64,000 bases of DNA from Coralloluteibacterium stylophorae (GTDB lineage Bacteria > Pseudomonadota > Gammaproteobacteria > Xanthomonadales > Xanthomonadaceae): positions 124,001 to 188,000 of the forward strand of contig NZ_JAGQFT020000001.1 in the NCBI RefSeq assembly GCF_018122625.2. The letters run 5' to 3'. Below the pieces are notes generated by a model that worked only from the letters and a program-made list of their open reading frames with translations, had not been told where the DNA came from and searched no databases. Within the stretch, counting starts at the first letter, position 1. Every line of letters starts with the position of its first letter. A program made the position numbers and the translations under genes. Positions 1,071-39,275 of the stretch are shown in pieces.

Positions 1071-1142
1071 GTGGGAGGGGCTTCAGCCCGGACGGCGGGT
1101 GCTCGGGTGACCAGCGCGGGTCGCGGCTGAAGCCGCTCCTAC
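1071..1142. repeat. REP-like inverted repeat pair (BIME-like)
   Basis: Two 20-bp units in inverted orientation lie between dbpA and the DUF1415 gene: GTGGGAGGGGCTTCAGCCCG at 1071-1090 and GCGGCTGAAGCCGCTCCTAC at 1123-1142. The reverse complement of the second matches the first at 16 of 20 positions. The GTAGGAGCGGCTTCAGCC form is typical of REP elements in Pseudomonas, Stenotrophomonas and other Xanthomonadaceae. The pair could fold into a cruciform or long hairpin with a ~32 nt loop. Confidence 0.75.
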
Positions 1143-35039: not shown

Positions 35040-36218
35040 TCAGGCGGCCAGGCCGGCGGCGTGGCCGCAGGCCCAGGCCCACTGGAAGTTGAAGCCGCCG
35101 AGGTGTCCGGTCACGTCGACCACCTCGCCGATGAAGAACAGGCCCGCGACCTGGCGCGACATCATGGTGCGCGAGTCGAGTCCGTCGGTGTCGACCCCGC
35201 CCAGGGTGACCTCGGCGGTGCGGTAGCCCTCGGTGCCGCTGGCGACCACCGGCCAGGCCGACAGCACGCCGGCGATGCGCGCGAGGTCGCGCGGCTGCAG
35301 CCGGCGCATGCGCGGCGAGCCGCCGAGGTCGTGCTCGCACAGGCGCTGGGCGAGGCGGCGCGGCAGGGCCTCGGCGAGCACGCTGCGCAGCTCCGCGTCG
35401 GGCGATGCCGCGCGGCGTTCGCACAGCCAGGCGTGCGCGTCGCGGTCGGGCAGCAGGTCGACCTCCAGCGCGTCGCCGGGCTGCCAGTACGACGAGATCT
35501 GCAGGATCGCCGGCCCCGACAGGCCGCGGTGGGTGAACAGCATGGCGTTGCGGAAGGCGCGGCCGTTCGCGCGCGCCTCGACCGGCAGCGCCACGCCGGG
35601 CAGGTCGACGTTGCGCTCGAGCGGCGCGCCGCTGAGCGTCAGCGGCACCAGCCCCGCGCGCAGCGGCAGCACCTCGTGGCCGAAGCGGCGCGCCAGGTCG
35701 AAACCGAAGCCGGTGGCGCCCATCCGCGGGATCGAGAGCCCGCCGGTCGCCACCACCAGGCTGTCGGCATGCACCGTCTGGACGCCGGCCTCGACCGTGA
35801 ACCCCGGCGCCGTCGCCGCCACGCCGCCGACCGCCACGCCGGTGCGGATCTCGACCCCGGCGTCGCGGCACTCGTCGACGAGCATGCGCACGATCAGCTT
35901 CGACGACACGTCGCAGAACAGCTGGCCGAGCTCCTTCTCGTGGTAGGCGACGCCGTGCGCCTCGACCATGGCGACGAAGTCGGCCGGCCGGAAACGCGCG
36001 AGCGCCGACTTGCAGAAGTGGCGGTTGCCCGAGATGAAGTTCTCGGGCGTCGTGTGCAGGTTGGTGAAGTTGCAGCGCCCGCCGCCCGACATGAGGATCT
36101 TCTTGCCGACGCGCTCGGCGTGCTCGAGCACGAGCACGCGGCGGCCGCGGCGTCCGGCGGTGAGCGCGCACATCAGGCCGGCGGCGCCGCCGCCGATCAC
36201 GACGACGTCGAAGCTCAT
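35040..36218 (-). CDS. HI0933/BaiN-like FAD-dependent oxidoreductase
   Basis: Flavoprotein of 392 residues. The N-terminal dinucleotide-binding motif is VVVIGGGAAGLMCALTAG (~5-22), followed by the family motif KKILMSGGGRCNFTN. Mid-protein markers are VATGGLSIPRMGATGFGFDLA and FTHRGLSGPAILQISS, and the end has FFIGEVVDVTGHLGGFNFQWAW. This is the HI0933/YhiN/BaiN family. Some members reduce bile-acid intermediates in gut bacteria, but the role in proteobacteria is unknown. It converges with the GGDEF-EAL gene (11 bp apart). A TAGAAT on the minus strand at 36296-36301 may be its -10 element. Confidence 0.88.
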   Translation of the reverse strand: MSFDVVVIGGGAAGLMCALTAGRRGRRVLVLEHAERVGKKILMSGGGRCNFTNLHTTPENFISGNRHFCKSALARFRPADFVAMVEAHGVAYHEKELGQLFCDVSSKLIVRMLVDECRDAGVEIRTGVAVGGVAATAPGFTVEAGVQTVHADSLVVATGGLSIPRMGATGFGFDLARRFGHEVLPLRAGLVPLTLSGAPLERNVDLPGVALPVEARANGRAFRNAMLFTHRGLSGPAILQISSYWQPGDALEVDLLPDRDAHAWLCERRAASPDAELRSVLAEALPRRLAQRLCEHDLGGSPRMRRLQPRDLARIAGVLSAWPVVASGTEGYRTAEVTLGGVDTDGLDSRTMMSRQVAGLFFIGEVVDVTGHLGGFNFQWAWACGHAAGLAA

Positions 36219-36295
36219 GCGGACGGAGAAGCGGGGACGGGCATCGTCGGAAGCGGGGAGGGCGTAGGGGGGGCGTGCGGGCGATCCGGCCGCGC

Positions 36296-36301
36296 ATTCT
36301 A
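36296..36301 (-). promoter_or_regulatory. candidate -10 element for the BaiN-like gene
   Basis: TAGAAT on the minus strand, 77 nt before the oxidoreductase start, in the 108-bp gap after the Gre-like gene. No convincing -35 element. Confidence 0.3.
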
Positions 36302-36326
36302 CGCAGGCGGCGCGCGGCCGGTGGCC

Positions 36327-36809
36327 TCAGGGGCCGGCATCGAGCGCGACGACCTCGACCTCGAGGTCGCCCGCCGGCCGCGGCCAGACCCGCGTCTCCC
36401 CGATCCGCGCGCCGAGCAGGGCGCGCGCCAGCGGCGAGACGTGGCTGATCAGGCCGCGCTCGGGATCGGCCTCGTCCTCGCCGACGATGCGATAGCGGAA
36501 GCGGCGGTCGTCGGCGTCGGCGATCTCCACGCGCATGCCGAAGCCCACCTGCTCGAGTGCGCCGCCGCCGGGCGTGACGACCATGGCCGATTCGATGCGC
36601 GCCCGCAGCCAGCGCATCTCGCGCTCGATGTGGGCGCGTTCGATCGCCGGCAGGTCGCGCTCTCCGCGGCGCCGCGCGGCGTCGGCGAGGCGCGTGCGCA
36701 GCAGCTCCAGGCCGCGGGCGGTGACGTAGTTCGGGTGCGGGCTGACCGGCAGTTCCGGCAGATCGCCGGGCAGGTCGCCGTCGGTCTCCTTGACGAAGGC
36801 GCGGCTCAT
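36327..36809 (-). CDS. GreA/GreB-family protein with shortened coiled coil
   Basis: Protein of 160 residues related to transcript-cleavage factors. The C-terminal domain (~88-158) is Gre-like: FGMRVEIADADDRRFRYRIVGEDEADPERGLISHVSPLARALLGARIGE. The N-terminal part has SPHPNYVTARGLELLRTRL and HIEREMRWLRARIESAMVV, matching the two helices of the Gre finger. The span from the VT of the first helix to the RWL/RYL of the second is about 40 residues against about 60 in E. coli GreB, and the GDRSENADY tip with the two catalytic acids is not kept. It may bind polymerase without stimulating cleavage, somewhat like Rnk or Gfh1. The next gene upstream on the same strand is tex, 96 bp away. Confidence 0.78.
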   Translation of the reverse strand: MSRAFVKETDGDLPGDLPELPVSPHPNYVTARGLELLRTRLADAARRRGERDLPAIERAHIEREMRWLRARIESAMVVTPGGGALEQVGFGMRVEIADADDRRFRYRIVGEDEADPERGLISHVSPLARALLGARIGETRVWPRPAGDLEVEVVALDAGP

Positions 36810-36905
36810 GCGTCCTCCTGTTGTTCGACGCGAACGACGCTACGTGCCGGCGTGTGCACGAGGCGCAGCCGCGCCTACACGGGGCGGCGCGGCTGCGGCG
36901 TCCGT

Positions 36906-39275
<2,370 letters not shown>

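Follow-up and report, generated by a model that had tools for sequence, protein, structure and literature searches.

What would a Gre factor do on RNA polymerase once its finger had lost the tip? The question is raised by a Gre-like gene (short gre, encoding short Gre) in a 64,000-nucleotide stretch of the Coralloluteibacterium stylophorae genome, hereafter the window. A sequence-only reading had placed this gene at 36327-36809 without naming a strand; the open reading frame fills exactly that interval, on the minus strand (Table 1). Since the finger has lost its tip, the protein should remain able to bind RNA polymerase without inducing RNA cleavage. The GC content of the gene (~0.74-0.77) is in line with its surroundings. 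The upstream neighbour is presumably Tex-like, and we do not call a terminator at the inverted repeat between the two genes. At the far end of the window, GTAGGAGCGGCTTCAGCCGCG (1122-1142, minus strand) resembles what we take to be REP-type repeats; it is the sole match in the window at up to two mismatches, and 19 of 100 shuffles gave at least one.

Table 1. Coordinates in the window of short gre, its parts and its neighbours
Feature	Position	Strand	Basis
Gre-like CDS, 160 aa, short finger	36327..36809	-	ORF and domain searches
N-terminal peptide, residues 1-10, MSRAFVKETD	36780..36809	-	Conservation (members partly picked by the peptide), pLDDT
Shortened finger: helix 31-48, turn 49-54, helix 55-74	36588..36719	-	AlphaFold model, length comparison
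Turn, residues 49-54, in place of the acidic tip	36648..36665	-	AlphaFold model, motif count
C-terminal polymerase-binding domain, PF01272, residues 86-155	36345..36554	-	Pfam
Ser125-Pro126 of the SPxAxAL loop, C-terminal domain	36432..36437	-	Pro 100%, Ser 88% (60 members below 70% identity)
AGGAGG, ribosome-binding-site-like, preceding the ATG start	36814..36819	-	Read in the sequence
Perfect 12-bp inverted repeat between the Tex-like gene and short gre	36864..36897	.	
Presumed Tex-like protein, upstream neighbour, same strand	36906..39275	-	ORF
FAD-dependent oxidoreductase, downstream neighbour, same strand	35040..36218	-	Name from the annotation of a Sphingomonas relative

A third Gre paralogue and its finger

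The C-terminal domain of short Gre scores 82.8 bits against PF01272 (cut-off 26.9), which places the protein in the Gre superfamily and bears out the earlier view that this domain is intact. The coiled-coil domain PF03449 gave no match in the protein at E values up to 1, nor at the locus in a search of the genome. That genome (4.0 Mb, 29 contigs) contains three PF01272 matches but two PF03449 matches, and its two other Gre proteins are an ordinary GreA (tip GDLKENAEY) and an ordinary GreB (tip GDRSENAEY). Normal greA and greB genes, whose presence elsewhere had been proposed as a check, are therefore both in place, and short Gre is a third Gre paralogue. It is not an Rnk by domain content, since Rnk_N (PF14760) was found neither in its Pfam scan nor in the genome of the window.

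Finger length was counted as the residues between Thr30, at the start of the first finger helix, and Arg66 in the second (short Gre numbering), in an alignment of 103 subfamily members with nine canonical GreA and GreB proteins, including the two of this genome. Short Gre has 35 residues and the 103 members have 34-42, as against 54-55 in all nine canonical proteins, with no overlap; short Gre thus lacks the full-length finger of GreA and GreB. The sequence-only reading had estimated a deficit of about 20 residues (about 40 versus about 60), close to the 19-20 counted here. Another set, 34 alphaproteobacterial proteins, has fingers of 26-44 residues; it includes a GreB-like protein (L321), and the filter missed one protein whose sequence was read (L327). 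The extreme of 26 residues belongs to L323 (genome G746), whose N-terminus still reads LSRAFVRE.

The acidic tip has disappeared together with the length. The motif GD(L/R)(K/S)EN(A/G)(D/E)Y, by which cleavage factors were recognized, occurs in none of the 103 members, short Gre included, so that the loss of a GDRSENADY-like tip, first noticed in one protein, extends to all of them. The turn of short Gre carries two acids, Glu50 and Asp52; no acid in the turn is conserved across the family, and an acid-x-x-acid pair falls within the central 14 finger residues of 13 of 60 members. Short Gre has all the features by which we define the subfamily: 26-44 residues between the anchors, no tip motif, and an MSxAFxKE-type N-terminus. 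What had been taken for a single odd protein is thus one of a conserved group.

Structure prediction, also proposed as a check, agrees with this count. The AlphaFold2 model of short Gre (alignment of 49 rows; mean pLDDT 91.5) has finger helices at residues 31-48 and 55-74, and the same predictor gave helices at 17-47 and 55-80 for the genome's own GreB (27 rows; pLDDT 93.6). The modelled helices are thus 18 and 20 residues long versus 31 and 26, and at 1.5 Å per residue the finger of short Gre would be ~9-20 Å shorter, depending on the helix used. As the short finger is common to relatives from several bacterial groups and the fold is predicted with high confidence, it is neither a chance feature nor the mark of a broken gene.

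The domain arrangement of the model is GreA-like, with both domains aligned to GreA 1grj (Z 15.7, rmsd 1.6, 129 residues), GreB 2p4v (Z 14.1, rmsd 2.2, 136 residues) and polymerase-bound Gfh1 3aoi (Z 14.6, rmsd 2.1, 132 residues). An integrative GreA model, 9a7t, ranks first (Z 16.3). Alignments are shorter for Rnk 3bmb (81 residues, Z 8.6) and for 2pn0 and the free Gfh1 entries (75-76 residues). The suggested comparison with GreA, GreB, Rnk and Gfh1 therefore returns a Gre fold in the GreA/GreB arrangement, and in Foldseek all 14 chains at E values up to 0.001 belong to Gre, Gfh1 or Rnk-type entries. The C-terminal domain weakly resembles FKBP-type folds (Z 6-7); these and the coiled-coil matches ranked below the Gre entries in both Foldseek and the structure search, and we set them aside as common folds. 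Within this domain, a loop is conserved among 60 members below 70% identity (Pro126 in 100%, Ser125 in 88%, Ser122 in 85%). E. coli GreA has S121 and S124 at the positions of Ser122 and Ser125, by our own count on the alignment; S121P is reported to lower polymerase binding and S124L to keep binding but lose activity (PMC7527559).

Distribution, neighbourhood and origin

Judged by their sequences, the short-finger proteins are a conserved, widespread and apparently little-studied subfamily. We counted as members those BLAST matches that align from residue 1 of short Gre and fit a loose N-terminal pattern, which gave 103 (short Gre counted) after removal of copies of its own locus and of one other locus. 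One match that failed the pattern alone (L112) and two full-finger GreB proteins set aside by hand (L140 and L141) are uncounted; all other excluded matches are from loci retrieved as canonical Gre. Because members were chosen by pattern and their loci ranked by whole-protein similarity, conservation figures for residues 1-8 are inflated.

The relatives that bear names, among the best 80 of 581 loci, are mostly alpha-, beta- and gammaproteobacteria (including Methylotenera, Methylobacterium, Mesorhizobium, Bradyrhizobium, Brucella, Caulobacter and Rhodobacter), with a few metagenome bins labelled Deltaproteobacteria, Desulfobacterales, Holophagaceae, Elusimicrobia and Eremiobacteraeota. In the window's class a short member occurs in at least 18 of 369 genomes, the window's own counted, a lower bound given that up to ten candidates were scored per genome. 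Among 59 other relatives searched (35 from the window's own family and 24 from its order), a full-length relative was found in one alone, G046, which belongs to another family. At least 37 of 385 alphaproteobacterial genomes have a short member by reading of the sequences, in a sample whose centre genome was picked for having one. All 33 genomes with a short protein that were searched for PF03449 hold at least one such canonical Gre domain, and the domain is absent from both plasmid records with a short protein (35 records searched in all). A search of titles and abstract openings, which barely covered the subscription literature, returned, apart from Rnk, no paper that deals with a subfamily of Gre with a short finger.

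NCBIfam has a model for these proteins, under the name GreA. The best NCBIfam match of short Gre is NF004973 (PRK06342; residues 1-155, 114.8 bits, below the curated cut-off of 159 bits), and the model matches all 53 members, short Gre included, of a further alignment (best E 1.5e-86). PF01272 is present in every one of these 53 proteins, and PF03449 gives insignificant matches alone in six (best E 0.025) and none in the remainder. The full model name, transcription elongation factor GreA, implies a cleavage factor, which the short-finger anatomy does not support. Since NF004973 is an equivalog that matches tipless proteins, the name is likely to mislead wherever it has been propagated.

Two ideas about the distribution were tried and rejected. 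A mobile-element origin finds real plasmid carriage (147 plasmid records with relatives, 111 of them covering at least 80%), but a phage origin is unsupported: PHROGs returned no family at E 0.01, of 12 phage-collection records just one, an unannotated 4 kb 'Bacteriophage sp.', spans the greater part of the protein, and the GC content is like that of the surroundings. Mutual exclusion with Rnk fails, as Rnk_N occurs in 10 of 45 genomes holding a short protein; the domain is found in 38 of 60 genomes of the window's family, a sample not comparable with those 45.

No gene neighbour is common to the whole subfamily. No other locus compared has short gre between a Tex-like gene and the oxidoreductase; a Tex-like gene lies beside it in copies of the window's own locus alone. 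The oxidoreductase adjoins short gre in Sphingomonas (54% identity) and at one further locus (32%). On the Sphingomonas plasmid (L040, 4001-5855), as in the window (35040-36809), short gre is followed by the FAD-dependent oxidoreductase on the same strand. The oxidoreductase occurs in 24 of 30 related genomes, the window's included, and the 23 others have no Tex-like gene or short gre within ~1.5 kb on each side (less in a few). Clustering of neighbours at 59 loci returned one large cluster overlapping the gene itself, groups within related genera, and common enzyme families, with one real exception. A mazG-like gene lies near short gre at no fewer than eight of the 103 loci (L128, L130, L131, L134-L137 and L139), which span four families of the window's class; this is a lower bound because many loci of the class span ~1.5 kb of flank. 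Where inspected, mazG points away from short gre; Pfam confirmed the MazG domain in L139. In L134 an HNH-type frame, recognized by eye, separates short gre from mazG and a class I/II aminotransferase follows, the aminotransferase cluster being common to four of the mazG loci. The window has no mazG-like gene near short gre, and the mazG neighbourhood does not point directly to the polymerase.

We do not claim an origin from trees. Three trees were built, each on 111 columns from the helix base and the C-terminal domain. The short proteins form one group beside GreB in the first (SH-aLRT 99 and 91, respectively) and one group beside all canonical Gre proteins in the second (88/40); in the third, rooted on Rnk, they form a basal grade instead (two changes; united as one group in 16% of bootstrap trees). 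Under constraint, a grouping with two motif-bearing GreB proteins was not rejected (p 0.68), and the same holds for GreA (p 0.81); both constrained trees scored better than the quick free tree. L321 (genome G676), which is in none of these trees, begins with MNKAFTKE and keeps the KNYMTPAG and KKRLREID segments of GreB, but has no GDRSENGDY tip and only 42 residues between the anchors versus 55. By its sequence it seems to be an alphaproteobacterial GreB with a separate tip loss. Tip loss from a peptide-bearing GreB is hence plausible as the origin of the family, which the trees cannot confirm.

The N-terminal peptide and GreB

Residues 1-10 of short Gre have a mean pLDDT of 56, and this low-confidence peptide is probably flexible. 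Among 60 members below 70% identity, Phe5 is kept in 100%, Glu8 in 95% and Ala4 in 93%, figures inflated by the selection of members. The peptide is shared with full-length proteins: L140 and L141, two full-finger GreB proteins from a single family of the class sample, have the MSxAFxKE type as well, and most alphaproteobacterial GreB proteins that we read begin with MSKAF(T/V)KE-type sequences.

To keep the peptide out of the query, 142 alphaproteobacterial genomes were searched with a GreB fragment stripped of its N-terminus. Matches at 1.3e-42 or better were obtained in 24 genomes, clearly separate from the next match at 3e-31. GreB bears the peptide in 16 of the 18 genomes without a short protein versus one of the six with it (Fisher p 0.0027), and after extension to 385 genomes, the 24 counted in, in 47 of 55 versus 2 of 16 (p 1.2e-7); the genomes are related, and neither p-value fully controls for kinship. 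For the extension the proteins were read, the profile searched with includes the peptide, the variants MNKAF and MSKAW were scored as present, and six GreA-type candidates (GDIKENAEY, GDLKENAEY, GDLSENAEY or GDISENAEY) were omitted. Two genomes without a short protein (G747 and G804), whose peptide-less GreB has an in-frame stop in the match, were scored as peptide-less, a counting that works against the pattern. The two exceptions with both peptide and short protein (G594 and G861) have nearly identical short proteins and are probably one lineage. As the larger search favours peptide-bearing GreB and scored up to nine candidates per genome, peptide-less GreB in genomes without a short protein is undercounted among the matches listed. 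An independent-pairs test found one pair on well-supported branches, too few for significance.

Outside this sample, apart from two genomes that also fall within the 385 (G428 and G429), the full peptide was present in none of eight named-relative genomes with both the short protein and an alpha/beta-type GreB; one of these GreB proteins starts MSKAQ. Gamma-type GreB in four genomes (G000, G046, G425 and G439) begins with M(S/T/G)RWRPP. Many GreB proteins of the window's class (L002, L008-L035 and L142-L151) start M(S/G)R(W/Y)RPP. A separate N-terminal pattern search was too narrow (Arg as AGR alone) and serves as a lead only.

One could speculate, and we consider the idea rather doubtful, that the short-finger proteins form a class dedicated to counteracting Gre and that MSxAFxKE is a docking or control signal given to one partner per genome. 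GreB would then bear the peptide when alone and give it up beside a tipless protein, and it would be the blocker, not the rescuer, that is recruited or regulated through the peptide. Whatever its cause, the alternation can be tested as a hint that Gre factors carry a peptide signal. By title or abstract opening, no report of it appeared among the papers listed by our literature searches, which were not aimed at the peptide.

Mechanism, alternatives and known systems

We favour, with moderate confidence, the view that short Gre is a non-cleaving, Rnk-like occupant of the secondary channel and a competitor of GreA, GreB or DksA. Its C-terminal domain would dock on the rim of RNA polymerase, where the globular domains are described as docking on the beta' rim helices (PMC7527559). 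The finger would enter the secondary channel but, being too short and devoid of the conserved acids, would neither reach nor re-arm the active site; D41 and E44 of the GreA tip are reported as catalytic residues needed for catalytic interaction (PMC7527559). Transcript cleavage would not be stimulated; instead short Gre would vie for one binding site with GreA, GreB and possibly DksA, in the manner of E. coli Rnk. GreA variants with poor antipause activity remain able to displace the wild type (PMC7527559), which speaks for such competition. Some GreA coiled-coil mutants lose polymerase binding (PMC7527559), so the shortened finger might also bind more weakly. The sequence-only reading had already proposed a channel occupant, and the anatomy fits: the finger is short, the tip motif is missing, the C-terminal domain is intact, the model is GreA-like, canonical Gre factors coexist in the same genomes, and the protein is conserved in several groups; this supports the proposal in part.

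Alternatively, short Gre might be an initiation regulator of the DksA/TraR kind, binding the channel mainly at promoters and altering open-complex stability, with contacts to the inside of the channel made by its short finger or its flexible N-terminal peptide. The globular domains of Gre and DksA are described as using the same rim helices (PMC7527559), and the peptide is strongly conserved (with the inflation noted above) yet poorly ordered in the model, so that it probably touches a partner. The same peptide, however, stands on full-finger GreB of alpha- and betaproteobacteria and hence does not simply substitute for a missing tip, and the fold of short Gre is that of Gre, which leaves a role in initiation unlikely. 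It is still less probable that the main role lies off the secondary channel, for example as a chaperone-like or RNA-binding protein: chaperone activity has been reported for GreA (PMC3521015) and the C-terminal domain is weakly FKBP-like, but the conserved Ser-Pro loop of the Gre C-terminal domain speaks against it.

Least probable, in our estimate, is that short Gre still stimulates cleavage, or does so in altered form, by docking more deeply or on a different polymerase in these species. Glu50 and Asp52 in the turn, and sporadic acids in relatives, could be invoked for this, against which stand the missing tip motif in 103 of 103 members and the canonical Gre factors already present in the same genomes. 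A different kind of alternative concerns direction, in that the short finger could be ancestral and the long cleavage finger a later state. The basal grade of short proteins in the Rnk-rooted tree, and the short finger of Rnk itself, would suit this order of events, but that tree has 111 columns only, the other two keep the short proteins as one group, and the tipless GreB-like L321 suggests that loss happens; we regard an ancestral short finger as improbable.

If the favoured reading, a non-cleaving competitor in the channel, is correct, it has consequences beyond this locus. Because models name the subfamily GreA, many proteobacterial genomes appear to hold a spare cleavage factor, which on sequence grounds is probably a non-cleaving competitor. 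Transcription rescue in these bacteria would be set by the ratio of cutter to blocker, and the family would amount to a natural experiment in finger length over more than 100 sequences.

The fold and the docking site were known; new to us are a tipless finger conserved on GreA-like architecture, the breadth of its distribution, and the way the N-terminal peptide alternates. GreB of alpha- and betaproteobacteria shares with short Gre the C-terminal domain and, in most proteins read, an MSKAF(T/V)KE-type peptide, but has a full finger with GDRSENGDY. The Sulfolobus protein TFS4 has a fold different from that of Gre. It resembles the proposed short Gre as a cleavage-factor paralogue turned polymerase inhibitor and differs in being a TFIIS-like zinc-ribbon protein (PMC5715097). 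Gfh1 and Rv3788 are described as channel-binding Gre paralogues without cleavage activity, as we propose for short Gre, but unlike short Gre they keep the tip acids (PMC4598747, PMC3132773). Rnk has a Gre-type C-terminal domain and a coiled coil expected to be too short to reach the active centre, the coiled coil of Gfh1 being described as longer (PMC4598747). The helices of the short Gre model are likewise short, as in E. coli Rnk (3bmb), and would likewise stop short of the active centre. Short Gre differs from Rnk in having no Rnk_N domain, and Rnk forms its own group in all three trees. Since the model aligns poorly with Rnk overall, over 81 residues versus 129 with GreA and 136 with GreB, the analogy between the two is one of function, not of shared domain arrangement.
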